A stretch of DNA of 64,000 nucleotides, taken from contig JABWCE010000005.1 in assembly GCA_013359235.1 (NCBI GenBank), forward strand, positions 1-64,000. Reading direction: 5' to 3'. The notes below the pieces were generated by a model. That model saw only the letters and a list, made by a program, of their open reading frames with translations. It ran no database searches and was not told where the DNA came from. Numbering within the stretch: the first letter of the stretch is position 1; each line of letters starts with the position of its first letter. Made by a program: the position numbers and the translations under genes. The stretch is from Bacteroidota bacterium. Lineage in GTDB: Bacteria > Bacteroidota > Bacteroidia > NS11-12g > UBA9320. Below, in pieces: positions 22,600 through 27,296 of the stretch.

Positions 22600-24498
22600 A
22601 TGACTTTAGAAAGTTATATTGAAAATGTAAATAAACGATATAAACTCGGAAATGCCACAGAACATACTTTTCGTGGCGATTTACAACAACTTTTGGAAAG
22701 TTTAGTACCGACAATCAGAGCGACCAATGAACCTAAACGCCAATCTTGTGGAGCTCCTGATTACATTTTGACCAAAAAAGATATTCCGGTTGGTTTTATT
22801 GAAGCAAAAGATATTGGCGACAAAGACCTTGACGGAGCAAAGAAAACAGGAAACAAAGAACAATTTGACCGTTACAAGGCTTCGCTGAACAACTTGATTT
22901 TTACAGACTATTTGAATTTTCATTTATATCGAGATGGAAAGTTGATTACAAAAATTGCAATTGGTGAAATAAATTCCAAGGGGATTTATCCCCTTGTAGA
23001 AAACTTTGCCAATTTTGAAATGCTTATCAAAGACTTTTGTTCGCACATTGGACAAACTATAAAAAGCAGTAAAAAACTCGCAGAAATGATGGCTGGCAAA
23101 GCTCGTCTGCTTTCTGATGTGATTGAAAAAGCATTGACAAGCGATGAAACCAATCACGAAGACAGCACCCTGAAAGACCAGATGTTGGCTTTCAAACAAA
23201 TATTGATACATGACATTACACCCAAAGGTTTTGCCGATGTTTACGCTCAAACCATTGCGTACGGAATGTTTGCAGCTCGTTTGCACGACCCTACTTTGCC
23301 AACTTTCAGCCGGCAAGAAGCAGCGGAATTGATTCCAAAATCCAATCCGTTTTTACGCAAATTGTTTGGCTACATTGCCGGTCCCGACATTGACGACCGC
23401 ATCAAATGGATAGTGGATGGTTTGGTTGAAATATTCCTGGCTTGCAATGTCGAAGAAATATTAAAAAACTACGGAAAGTCAACAAAAATGGAAGATCCCA
23501 TCATCCATTTTTACGAAACCTTCCTCAGTGAATACGACCCAAAATTGCGTAAAGCTCGTGGCGTATGGTACACGCCGGCTCCGGTTGTAAACTTTATTGT
23601 TAGAGCTGTTGATGATATTTTAAAAACCGAATTTAATTTACCTCAAGGTTTAGCCGACACCAGCAAAACCAAAATAAAAGTAGATGTTCAAGGTAAAAAA
23701 ATAGAGCAAGAAGTACACAGGGTGCAAATACTTGACCCAGCTACAGGTACGGGAACTTTTTTGGCAGAAGTAGTAAAACACATTCATAAAAAATTTGAAG
23801 GACAGCAAGGTATTTGGAGCAATTATGTAGAAAATCATTTGTTGCCTCGCTTGAATGGCTTTGAATTGCTGATGGCAAGTTATGCTATGGCACACCTTAA
23901 ATTGGATTTGCTTTTGACTGAAACCGGCTATACTTCTACAGGCTCAGCACAAGCCAATAATCGCCTAAGAGTTTATTTGACCAATAGTTTAGAAGAACAC
24001 CTTCAAGACACAGGCACTCTTTTTACCAATTGGTTAAGCACAGAAGCCAACGAGGCAAATCGTATCAAACGCGATACACCTGTAATGTGTGTGATTGGAA
24101 ATCCGCCGTATAGTGGAGAAAGTGCCAATAAAGATGAATGGATTAAGAACCTGATGGAAGTTTACAAAAAAGAACCAGGAGGAAAAGAAAAACTAAAAGA
24201 ACGAAATCCAAAATGGATTAATGATGATTATGTGAAATTTATTCGTTTTGGTTCACACCTGATTGAAAAAAACGGAGAAGGTATTTTAGCATTTATCAAT
24301 CCACACGGATATTTAGATAATCCAACTTTTAGAGGAATGCGTTGGCATTTGATGAAAACTTATGATAAAATCTACACCATAGATTTACACGGAAATGCCA
24401 AGAAAAAGGAAACTGCTCCCGATGGAAGTATAGACCAAAATGTGTTTGACATTATGCAAGGTGTAAGCATCAATATTTTTGTAAAGAAGAAAAACTAA
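22600..24498 (+). CDS. Type ISP-like restriction-modification enzyme, N-terminal half (nuclease plus methyltransferase)
   Basis: 632 residues. An N-terminal PD-(D/E)XK nuclease is visible: Asp54 in GAPDYIL and Glu68-Ala-Lys70 in GFIEAKD. A helical linker follows, then an N6-adenine methyltransferase with motif I DPATGTGTF at about 379-387 and catalytic NPPY at 501-504. The chain stops right after DIMQGVSINIFVKKKN; in intact homologues I know, this point runs straight on into the segment that begins the gene at 25500. The target-recognition part is therefore on a separate gene, two genes downstream. No helicase block is seen, unlike LlaBIII-type enzymes. A hand-counted 60-base sample (23221-23280) has 29 G/C, well above neighbouring genes, which suggests transfer. 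Confidence 0.88.
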   Translation: MTLESYIENVNKRYKLGNATEHTFRGDLQQLLESLVPTIRATNEPKRQSCGAPDYILTKKDIPVGFIEAKDIGDKDLDGAKKTGNKEQFDRYKASLNNLIFTDYLNFHLYRDGKLITKIAIGEINSKGIYPLVENFANFEMLIKDFCSHIGQTIKSSKKLAEMMAGKARLLSDVIEKALTSDETNHEDSTLKDQMLAFKQILIHDITPKGFADVYAQTIAYGMFAARLHDPTLPTFSRQEAAELIPKSNPFLRKLFGYIAGPDIDDRIKWIVDGLVEIFLACNVEEILKNYGKSTKMEDPIIHFYETFLSEYDPKLRKARGVWYTPAPVVNFIVRAVDDILKTEFNLPQGLADTSKTKIKVDVQGKKIEQEVHRVQILDPATGTGTFLAEVVKHIHKKFEGQQGIWSNYVENHLLPRLNGFELLMASYAMAHLKLDLLLTETGYTSTGSAQANNRLRVYLTNSLEEHLQDTGTLFTNWLSTEANEANRIKRDTPVMCVIGNPPYSGESANKDEWIKNLMEVYKKEPGGKEKLKERNPKWINDDYVKFIRFGSHLIEKNGEGILAFINPHGYLDNPTFRGMRWHLMKTYDKIYTIDLHGNAKKKETAPDGSIDQNVFDIMQGVSINIFVKKKN

Positions 24499-24502
24499 CT
24501 CA

Positions 24503-25510
24503 ATGAATTACCTAATAGAAATAAAAAGCATTTTAGCGCAAGCCAGACAAAAAGCCTATGCAGCTATCAACACTGCAATGGTTGAAGCTTATTGGAAAAT
24601 TGGCGAACGCATTGTGCAAGAAGAACAAAACGGAAAAGACAGAGCGGAATATGGAAAAGAATTGATAAAATCAATTTCTAAAGAACTAACCGCAGAATTT
24701 GGTAAAGGATTTAGCCCAAGAACCATTTGGGAAATTCGTCAATTTCATCTGCTCTTTCCTGATTTTCAAATTGTGCGAACACTGTCCGCACAATTGACAT
24801 GGTCGCATTTTCAACGTGTTTTCAAAGTAAGCAACGAAAAAGCTCGAATGTATTACTTGCAAGAAGCAGCCGCACAAACTTGGTCTATCAGAACATTGGA
24901 TAGAAACATTTCTACCTTGTATTACGACAGGATGTTGGCATCTGACAATAAACAATTGGTACAAGACGAAATGCATACAAATACAAAAACCTTGCAGTCA
25001 GAAGATTTCATCAAAAACCCAATGGTGTTAGAATTTTTGAATTTACCAACAAACCTTTCCTATACAGAAGCCGAATTAGAAAAAGCATTGATAGACAACC
25101 TGCAAGCATTTATCTTGGAATTGGGTAAAGGTTTTGCTTTTGTGAGCCGACAAGAACACATCCGTACAGAAACAGCTGATTTTTATATCGACTTGGTGTT
25201 TTATAATTTCTTGTTGAAATGTTTTGTCATCATAGAATTAAAAACTGATAAACTTACCCACCAAGACATTGGACAACTGGATATGTATGTAAGAATGTAT
25301 GACGACCTTAAACGGCAACACGATGACAATCCTACCATTGGACTATTACTCTGCACCGAAACCGATAAAGTAGTGGCTAAATACTCTGTATTGAACGAAA
25401 GCAAACAACTTTTTGCCAGCAAATACATACACTATTTGCCAAGCGAAGAAGAATTGGTACGCGAAATAGAATTACAAAAACGACTCTTTGAACAACAACA
25501 TGAAAAATAA
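24503..25510 (+). CDS. DUF1016/YhcG-family PD-(D/E)XK nuclease
   Basis: 335 residues. The N-terminal DUF1016_N helical domain (IKSILAQARQKAYAAINTAM, VEAYWKIGERIVQEEQ, FGKGFSPRTIWEIRQF) is followed by a nuclease domain with AFVSRQEHIR, ADFYIDLVFY (Asp) and FVIIELKTD (Glu-x-Lys). Members are often found within restriction-modification loci and are predicted endonucleases; their target is not established. The gene starts 4 bases after the stop of the methyltransferase half and its last 11 bases overlap the ATG at 25500 of the other half, so all three should be translated from one message. No sign of decay. Confidence 0.92.
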   Translation: MNYLIEIKSILAQARQKAYAAINTAMVEAYWKIGERIVQEEQNGKDRAEYGKELIKSISKELTAEFGKGFSPRTIWEIRQFHLLFPDFQIVRTLSAQLTWSHFQRVFKVSNEKARMYYLQEAAAQTWSIRTLDRNISTLYYDRMLASDNKQLVQDEMHTNTKTLQSEDFIKNPMVLEFLNLPTNLSYTEAELEKALIDNLQAFILELGKGFAFVSRQEHIRTETADFYIDLVFYNFLLKCFVIIELKTDKLTHQDIGQLDMYVRMYDDLKRQHDDNPTIGLLLCTETDKVVAKYSVLNESKQLFASKYIHYLPSEEELVREIELQKRLFEQQHEK

Positions 25511-27296
25511 AAAAGCACAAGTTTTTCACTTTGACCTCTACGGAAAACGAGAAGATAAATACAATTTTCTGAATGAAAATTCTTTACAAAGCATAGCTTG
25601 GACAACTCTTAATCCACAAGAACCCGAACTCTTTTTTGTGCAAAAAGATTTTTCTTTACTGAATGATTATGACACTTTTATAAAAATTGATGAATTGCTA
25701 AATATAAATGGTGTTGGTATTTGTTCAAAACGAGATGAAACAGCAATAAAATTTAAAAAAAATGAATTGCATGAGGTTTTGAGTGATTTTGAGAATTTAT
25801 CAGATTTAGAAATAAAAACAAAATATAGGACAGAAAAAACAGAAAGTCGAGATAAAAAAATTGCTTTTGCGAAAAAAAACATTTCAGATTTTAAAATAAA
25901 AGAAGATTTTTTGCAAAAAATAAATTACCGACCTTTTGATACCAGATGGACATATTTTACCAACCGCTCAAAAGGTTTTTTAGCATACCCTGTTTACGCT
26001 ATAATGAAGCATTTAGTAGAAAACAATTTTGGAATAATTGTTTCTAAAAAAAGTCGTCAATTAAGTTTGGGCTATATGTTCATAACAAAAACTATTACTG
26101 ACTTGCACATTTTGGATAGCGCAGCAGATTCAACATACATTTTTCCTCTTTACCTTTATCCCGAACCTACATTAGGAGCAGAGTCAGAGCGAGTTCCTAA
26201 TTTTAATATGGAAATTGTGAAGAAGATAGCAGATAATTTAGGTTTAACTTTCACTGCTGAAAAATTCCCCTCCACTGGAGGGGTGGCTGAAAGCCAGGGT
26301 GGTACCTTCCCCTCCGTTGGAAGGGTGTCCGAAGGACGGGGTGGTCGAAACACCCAAAACTACATGTCTCTCCCATACAACCCTGCTTTAAAAGAAAGAG
26401 CCAAAGAATTAAGAAAAGCAGGCAATCTATCAGAAGTTCTTTTTTGGAATCAAGTAAAAAATAAGCAATTCAAAGGACTGGATTTTGACCGTCAAAAAAT
26501 TATTGGAAATTATATAGTTGATTTTTATTGTGCAAATTGCAATGTTGTGGTGGAGATAGACGGTAGCAGCCATGATAACAAACAAGATTACGATGCCGAA
26601 AGAGATGAATTTTTAGAGTCATTAGGACTCACGGTTATTCATATTCCCGTGGTAGAAGTTATGAATAACATGAGCAGTGTTATTGAGATGCTTCTTGACC
26701 ACCCCGCCCTAAAGGGCACCCCTCCTCACAAAGAAAATAAACCACCCCGTCCTACGGACACCCCTCCAAAGGAGGGGAATTTTTCTCCGATAGACCTATT
26801 AGATTACATCTATGCCGTTTTGCATTCGCCAACATACAGAGAAAAATACAAAGAATTTCTGAAAATAGATTTTCCGAGAATTCCATATCCAAAAGACCAG
26901 GAAACTTTTTGGCAATTGGTGGAGCTGGGCAAACAAATCCGTGAAATACATTTATTAGAAAGTCCGGTTGTAGAAAATTACATAACACAATATCCAATAG
27001 ACGGAGATAATGTTGTAGGTAAACCTCATTTTGAAAATTCCCCTCCAGTGGAGTGGTGGCTGAAAGCCGGGGTGGTCGGAAAAGTATATATCAACGAAAC
27101 CCAATATTTTGCCAACGTTCCGCAAACAGCTTGGGAATTTTACATTGGTGGTTATCAACCGGCACAAAAATGGCTCAAAGACCGCAAAGACAGAACCTTA
27201 GACATTGATGATATTTTGCATTATCAAAAAATAATTGTAGCCTTAACAGAAACTTATAGATTGATGAAGGAGATTGATAAAATTAAAATTATTTAG
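25500..27296 (+). CDS. Type ISP-like restriction-modification enzyme, C-terminal (target-recognition) half, carrying an internal DUF559 module
   Basis: 598 residues from the ATG at 25500 (a TTG at 25488 is the other option). Residues 1-255 (VFHFDLYGKREDKYNFLNEN, INYRPFDTRWTYFTNRSKG) and 428-598 (PIDLLDYIYAVLHSPTYREK, FYIGGYQPAQKWLKDRK) match the region that follows the methyltransferase in intact type ISP-like enzymes and should read the DNA target. Residues about 256-427 are foreign to that plan: two direct repeat copies, a DUF559 endonuclease domain beginning at a Met (26364), and two inverted repeat copies. Another repeat copy adds about 13 residues at 513-526. Reading frame is kept throughout. 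Whether the split, interrupted enzyme is active is unknown. Confidence 0.85.
   Translation: MKNKKAQVFHFDLYGKREDKYNFLNENSLQSIAWTTLNPQEPELFFVQKDFSLLNDYDTFIKIDELLNINGVGICSKRDETAIKFKKNELHEVLSDFENLSDLEIKTKYRTEKTESRDKKIAFAKKNISDFKIKEDFLQKINYRPFDTRWTYFTNRSKGFLAYPVYAIMKHLVENNFGIIVSKKSRQLSLGYMFITKTITDLHILDSAADSTYIFPLYLYPEPTLGAESERVPNFNMEIVKKIADNLGLTFTAEKFPSTGGVAESQGGTFPSVGRVSEGRGGRNTQNYMSLPYNPALKERAKELRKAGNLSEVLFWNQVKNKQFKGLDFDRQKIIGNYIVDFYCANCNVVVEIDGSSHDNKQDYDAERDEFLESLGLTVIHIPVVEVMNNMSSVIEMLLDHPALKGTPPHKENKPPRPTDTPPKEGNFSPIDLLDYIYAVLHSPTYREKYKEFLKIDFPRIPYPKDQETFWQLVELGKQIREIHLLESPVVENYITQYPIDGDNVVGKPHFENSPPVEWWLKAGVVGKVYINETQYFANVPQTAWEFYIGGYQPAQKWLKDRKDRTLDIDDILHYQKIIVALTETYRLMKEIDKIKII
26265..26303 (+). 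repeat. 39-nt double-hairpin repeat, copy A
   Basis: Begins TTCCCCTCC and ends GGGTGGT. Hairpin I: CCCCTCC-ACT-GGAGGGG, perfect 7-bp stem. Hairpin II: GGCT-GAA-AGCC. Translated in host frame as part of the restriction-modification protein. Confidence 0.85.
26307..26345 (+). repeat. 39-nt double-hairpin repeat, copy B
   Basis: Same length and ends as copy A, 3 bases downstream of it. Hairpin I carries one mismatch (CCCCTCC-GTT-GGAAGGG). Hairpin II is GTCC-GAA-GGAC, a compensatory change relative to copy A with the same GAA loop. Confidence 0.85.
26698..26736 (-). repeat. 39-nt double-hairpin repeat, copy D (degenerate)
   Basis: Inverted orientation. The hairpin II half is intact (GCCC-TTTA-GGGC on the minus strand, then GGGGTGGT), but the distal arm of hairpin I is eroded. 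Confidence 0.65.
26741..26779 (-). repeat. 39-nt double-hairpin repeat, copy C
   Basis: Inverted orientation, 4 bases after copy D. On the minus strand hairpin I is CCCCTCC-TTT-GGAGGGG and hairpin II GTCC-GTA-GGAC; ends match copies A and B. Confidence 0.85.
27038..27076 (+). repeat. 39-nt double-hairpin repeat, solitary copy E
   Basis: Starts TTCCCCTCC, ends GGGTGGT; hairpin I CCCCTCC-AGT-GGAGTGG has one mismatch and hairpin II GGCT-GAA-AGCC is perfect. It adds NSPPVEWWLKAGVV between HFE and GKVYINETQYF of the host protein, in a reading phase different from copies A and B. Confidence 0.85.

Follow-up and report, generated by a model that had tools for sequence, protein, structure and literature searches.

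A DUF559 nuclease bracketed by palindromic repeats and inserted in frame in host genes: a candidate REP-like, homing-like element

The REP-RAYT systems (REPtrons, REPINs) combine short imperfect palindromes, with a GTAG tetranucleotide at one end of the unit, with an HUH/Y1 tyrosine transposase; CGTC REPs have no dedicated transposase (PMC3733652). Rickettsia palindromic elements, about 150 bp long, comprise the repeat only, with no known enzyme, and lie in frame in coding genes, including tRNA-modification genes (PMC10969869, PMC3733652). Homing and intein-borne endonucleases, such as the I-Bth0305I (EDxHD) family, are nested in conserved genes. The DUF559/YcjD domain itself appears in the literature as a putative PD-(D/E)XK nuclease (PMC1189080). 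Here we describe a DUF559 nuclease that lies between palindromic repeats, in frame within a restriction enzyme, in a 64,000-nt stretch of a Bacteroidota genome (referred to in the following as the window; contig JABWCE010000005.1, assembly GCA_013359235.1), and compare it with these systems.

The insert consists of two forward palindromic units, the nuclease and two inverted units, in that order (Table 1). The window units read TTCCCCTCC...GGGGTGGT. Units B and C form a 39-nt inverted repeat with 92% complementarity, and units A and C lie within a 45-nt inverted repeat of 82%. The initial annotation had described uniform 39-nt units in the arrangement A>B>[endonuclease]<D<C. The four inverted-paired units are real, but only A, B and C are full; unit D is missing the 5' arm of its outer hairpin. 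That annotation had also overlooked a fifth unit, which stands alone in the same ORF. As had been proposed, the nuclease has a methionine of its own, at 26364, which could serve as its start, and the ORF runs from nuclease to host without a stop. The insert occupies what is a loop of about 6–7 residues in empty homologues (TFTNEK-ETTENT-FAPID). When a 395-genome sample was searched with the exact hairpin pattern, about 90 matches were found, against 1 for a reversed control pattern, showing that the repeat is not a chance occurrence.

Table 1. Positions of the insert, its components and the host enzyme in the window.
Feature	Position	Strand	Remarks
Host enzyme, N-terminal (methyltransferase) part	22600–24498	+	Single ORF with the C-terminal part in homologues
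Host ORF, C-terminal part of type IIG/ISP restriction-modification enzyme	25488–27296	+	Bears the insert
Whole in-frame insert	26265–26780	+	172 codons, 516 nt; empty homologues L178–L185 continue straight through the loop
Repeat unit A	26265–26303	+	TTCCCCTCC-nnn-GGAGGGG hairpin, second mini-hairpin, G-rich tail facing the nuclease
Repeat unit B	26307–26345	+	92% complementary to unit C
DUF559 (PF04480) PD-(D/E)XK/Vsr-like nuclease domain	26388–26696	+	E = 2e-30
Repeat unit D	26698–26736	-	Degenerate, outer hairpin arm gone
Repeat unit C	26741–26779	-	Full
Solo repeat unit	27036–27076	+	In frame, same host ORF as the insert

The ORF that bears the insert encodes 602 amino acids and, apart from DUF559, matches Type_ISP_C (PF18135, E = 5e-81), in agreement with the earlier reading of an in-frame insertion in a restriction enzyme. 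The host enzyme is divided into two ORFs by a gene for a YhcG/DUF1016 PD-(D/E)XK nuclease (window 24503–25510); its homologues have one ORF there and lack this gene. A similarity search of the whole genome (2.65 Mb) detected the repeat only at the window sites and beside the single other DUF559 gene. This second gene, too, lies in frame within a restriction-modification ORF, and repeats bracket it: three 48-nt units in tandem and a single inverted copy. The tandem repeats lie upstream of the gene (L001:1338–1481), and the first two are identical.

The predicted structure of the nuclease had a mean pLDDT of 88. By both sequence and fold, its best match was 3hrl, followed by the homing endonuclease I-Bth0305I (profile E = 5.5e-6, Foldseek probability 1.00); the match to Vsr was weaker. 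The initial annotation had described DUF559 proteins as Vsr-like; the domain, of the PD-(D/E)XK/Vsr-like class, is closer to I-Bth0305I than to Vsr. Judged from sequence profiles and a predicted model, I-Bth0305I is the nearest solved relative of known function, a relationship that indicates kinship and does not prove function.

We assembled 251 DUF559 loci, including the two from the window genome. Another 14 were strong matches in genomes of the same order. For 80 more, each species was represented by one genome, over many phyla, and the loci taken were those that best matched close relatives of the window protein. A further 143 came from the 395-genome sample of the class, which comprised the top entries of a ranked list, and the set was completed by a few viral and plasmid records. 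Because of this selection by best match and top of list, the percentages are valid for these samples and not for all DUF559. At 170 of the 246 testable loci, the 250-nt upstream and downstream flanks were mutually inverted above the 99th percentile of the controls (observed median score 36.5, compared to a maximum of 30 among 784 controls); no inverted repeat was detectable at the other 76. A generic G-rich pattern of hairpin plus tail was found on at least one side of 168/246 loci and at 23/779 controls. The specific window unit type, AATTCCCCTCC-nnn-GGAGGGGTG-[hairpin]-CGGGGTGGT, was seen again around relatives in Bacteroidota, Spirochaetota, Desulfobacterota, Alphaproteobacteria, Bacillota, Armatimonadota and others. 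Repeats are therefore present near most of the other DUF559 genes in these samples, as the initial annotation had suggested for Bacteroidota, but the phenomenon extends beyond that phylum and beyond restriction enzymes. A lack of repeats at other DUF559 genes, which the annotation had named as one possible refutation, was not observed.

Several individual loci are recorded here for their surroundings. A DUF559 gene on Sinorhizobium meliloti pSymB (L352:680–1300) had very strong inverted flanks (score 208) and adjoins an ISRm16 transposase gene, and a Sphingomonas DUF559 gene bracketed by inverted repeats (L353:765–1175) is located between sufB and sufC. The ycjD gene of E. coli, situated between sapF and fabI (L392:789–1142), also belongs to DUF559, and a match to most of this locus was found in 3333 of 5426 genomes. 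It was considered as a strain-level empty site and rejected: the two lineages without ycjD that were inspected hold efflux-pump genes at this position.

The second hairpin of the repeat covaries, with three of its four pairs changing on both sides (score 0.195 versus 0.076; 0/500 shuffles). A C-GNA-G loop occurred in 27 of the 44 distinct second hairpins that have a stem, and GNA in only 3 of 56 triloops of the first hairpin. GNA loops are a class known for extraordinarily stable DNA mini-hairpins (PMC4686876). Taken together, the C-GNA-G loops and the covariation point to use of the second hairpin as single-stranded DNA. The orientation of the repeats was also informative. Around embedded clade II nucleases, the tails faced away from the gene (89 outer versus 5 inner), whereas those of clade I faced toward it (42 inner versus 9 outer), many clade I ends being unclassed. 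Since tail orientation tracks the nuclease clade, repeat and nuclease appear to co-evolve. We also considered selection for stop-free repeats, and rejected it: 81 stops were counted in six frames, compared to 92 (sd 7) in shuffles, which leaves little to explain beyond composition.

Repeats were also present in genomes with no detectable DUF559, namely G388, with 19 matches to the window-type hairpin pattern (L329–L337), and G342, with 6. Most of the G388 units read had the second hairpin TCAGTTTACTGA in common, and their first loop was variable. Repeats without DUF559 would be consistent with DUF559 being cargo of a REP/TIR family that relies on a different enzyme for its movement, for example a Y1 (RAYT/TIRYT) transposase. 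RAYTs are known to move REPs, and some Y1 genes are flanked by TIRs that contain a GGGGWSAS motif (PMC3733652), with which the clade II tail GGGGTGAG would be compatible. However, the G-rich hairpin was found at none of 27 Y1 loci from carrier genomes, and three carrier genomes (G002, G049 and G188) have no Y1 genes, which disfavours a Y1 transposase as the mobiliser and makes this explanation improbable. CGTC-tagged REPs were likewise rejected as the partner of DUF559: none were found beside the 14 proteobacterial and cyanobacterial loci examined, where the repeats were mostly CCCTCTCC-type or window-like.

At 116 of the 251 loci, the nuclease was in frame within an ORF of at least 300 amino acids. 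The host ORFs were clustered and the cluster representatives named by NCBIfam models. The largest cluster was leucyl-tRNA synthetase (LeuRS, 33), followed by MetH (9), HsdR (8), acetate–CoA ligase (AcsA, 7), type ISP (6), IleRS (5) and RecG (4), with smaller clusters of Sua5/TsaC, QueA, RecJ, IcmF, MutS, HisF, TsaD, LipA, IspG, an RluA-family synthase and others. In Sua5, HisF, LipA and IspG, the nuclease was fused at or near the N-terminus and was not an internal insert. Several of the hosts, including that of the window, are restriction-modification enzymes, which would fit recruitment of DUF559 by such enzymes as an additional nuclease domain from which the host protein benefits. We give this explanation almost no weight, in view of the unrelated metabolic and tRNA-synthetase hosts, the absence of DUF559 from most ISP homologues and the repeats that bracket the nuclease.

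In LeuRS, the nuclease was inserted in two main loops (site A, 21; site B, 11) and at one further site. The interrupted gene was fully open, and was the only sequence above the family cut-off in 10/10 carrier genomes checked, two of which were single-contig assemblies. Hence, the product must work with the domain in place, unless there is some unseen processing. The active-site motif residues were intact in 84 of the 85 embedded clade II nucleases. An ATG was present near the start of the domain in only 38/85 of these embedded copies, compared to 56/62 free-standing ones, suggesting that many depend on the host for translation. Many embedded clade II nucleases have in common an N-terminal GY-x-T peptide just upstream of the domain (L010, L011, L014, L121, L133 and others), often without a start codon of their own. 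No intein (Hint) domain was found in the window ORF, which contained only Type_ISP_C and DUF559, nor was an intein model matched among the 17 host ORFs examined by family models. We infer that the embedded nuclease is made as an unspliced domain of the host protein.

Presence of the element varied independently of the host. The corresponding site (loop 1) in type ISP homologues was either empty (TFTNEKETTENTFAPID), occupied by a solo unit in either orientation, or occupied by the full element. Eighteen of the 26 sampled ISP enzymes were empty at this site, which rules out an ancient fusion at the same position, the other outcome that the initial annotation had named as a refutation. In the window, loop 1 contains the full element and loop 2 a solo unit; in two other genomes (G405 and G221), the arrangement is reversed, with a DUF559 element at loop 2 and a solo unit at loop 1. 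On the type ISP host tree, the full element required at least four changes, three of them forced by well-supported branches, and the nearest hosts to that of the window were empty. The window nuclease was 83% identical to a copy in a spirochaete ISP enzyme and 81% identical to one in a Weeksella HsdR. Empty, solo-unit and full states of a MetH loop were found within one genus, and both filled and empty Sua5 in the genus of the window.

The nuclease tree required a minimum of 28 host changes across the 89 copies that were labelled, and in a clade of 75 rows nearly all copies were embedded. The tree was built on about 119 columns and had many weak forks; the case for host switching rests on supported joins of unrelated hosts, such as RecG with IleRS and LeuRS with IcmF. 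Some copies had no nuclease. These were mini-elements, in which two units faced each other at a distance of about 80 nt, and solo units whose second hairpin was specific to the genome; the latter also occurred in a genome without detectable DUF559. Near-identical copies within one genome were rare, so transposition, if it is current, must be slow. No target-site duplication, as left by a DDE insertion sequence or MITE, was visible at the loci compared, for which the empty sites came from other species. For the same reason, and because the resident loop looks replaced, the exact DNA junction could not be fixed. These comparisons demonstrate both the association of nuclease and repeat and their gain or loss independently of the host genes.

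The main rival that remains is that DUF559 is purely a homing endonuclease, making a site-specific cut in the empty host allele and being copied in by recombination, with the repeats as incidental linkers or junction parasites. The closest characterised relative, I-Bth0305I, is a homing endonuclease; the same loops recur, as at LeuRS sites A and B; and on the tree, the copies group by site more than shuffled labels do. Recurrence at the same loops could, on the other hand, reflect survival at permissive sites. Pure homing also leaves unexplained the coupling of repeat families to nuclease clade in both sequence and orientation, the conserved DNA mini-hairpin, and the solo and nuclease-free copies elsewhere in genomes, and we consider it unlikely.

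Instead, we favor, with a probability of roughly 0.7, the interpretation that the insert, about 0.5 kb long, is an autonomous, REP-like and homing-like selfish element in which the nuclease drives the movement of both itself and the repeats. The bracketed architecture, its recurrence, the hosting in frame in essential genes, the intact catalytic motif and the coupling of orientation to clade are established features of the element. The partnership of homing-like or REP/RAYT-like type that had originally been suggested is thereby supported by comparative data, with movement in the biochemical sense inferred. We infer that the most likely targets of the nuclease are the terminal hairpins of its own family, which it would recognise when they fold in single-stranded or extruded DNA, cutting at or near them; host repair, also by inference, would then copy or paste the element to a new location. 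Solo units, and internally deleted copies with two inward-facing units, would be either relics or non-autonomous derivatives that were mobilised in trans. Copies would persist where the insertion preserves the frame within a surface loop of the protein, the repeats acting, as we infer, as Pro/Gly/Ser-rich linkers and the nuclease being translated as an inserted domain without splicing. Once inside an essential single-copy gene, the element is hard to lose, as is the case for inteins. It also seems probable to us that these elements constitute a new class, in which a Vsr/I-Bth0305I-like nuclease recognises terminal DNA mini-hairpins, mobilises non-autonomous repeats as well as itself, and settles in essential genes in frame and unspliced, in one clade almost exclusively so.

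If this is true, a widespread domain of unknown function acquires a testable role, and G-rich palindromic repeats, for which we found no mobiliser described, acquire a candidate. The element would be an unspliced counterpart to inteins, with whole nuclease domains tolerated in single-copy LeuRS, and also in IleRS or MutS. The spread of repeats through coding sequence becomes a directly testable question, and the insertions provide natural maps of insertion-tolerant loops in essential enzymes. We found no account of a DUF559–repeat element in the open-access papers searched, and its absence from these is weak evidence.

The YcjD/DUF559 putative nucleases (3hrl, NGO0050) belong to the same domain family, but the papers found on them do not mention a repeat partnership. 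Like REP-RAYT, the element has a small nuclease gene placed between short, imperfect palindromes in inverted orientation, single and paired non-autonomous copies elsewhere, and probably a single-stranded DNA hairpin structure. It differs in its enzyme, which is PF04480 (PD-(D/E)XK/Vsr-like) in place of an HUH/Y1 transposase, in the lack of GTAG in its units, and in that the nuclease-bearing unit sits in frame inside host genes. With the I-Bth0305I family and intein-borne endonucleases, it shares a related catalytic fold, nesting in conserved genes, recurrent sites, and presence or absence independent of the host gene; unlike these, no intron or intein was found, and the domain is apparently unspliced and lies between hairpin repeats. 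The affinity to homing endonucleases lies in the catalytic domain, with cleavage of an empty allele, the defining property of that group, only a hypothesis here. In-frame insertion of a palindromic repeat, as in the Rickettsia palindromic elements, is seen in the solo units of ISP and MetH, but those elements have no known enzyme, and the CGTC-tagged type was absent from the loci examined for it. REP-RAYT, inteins and Rickettsia palindromic elements are each partly alike, and each fails a defining feature that was tested.
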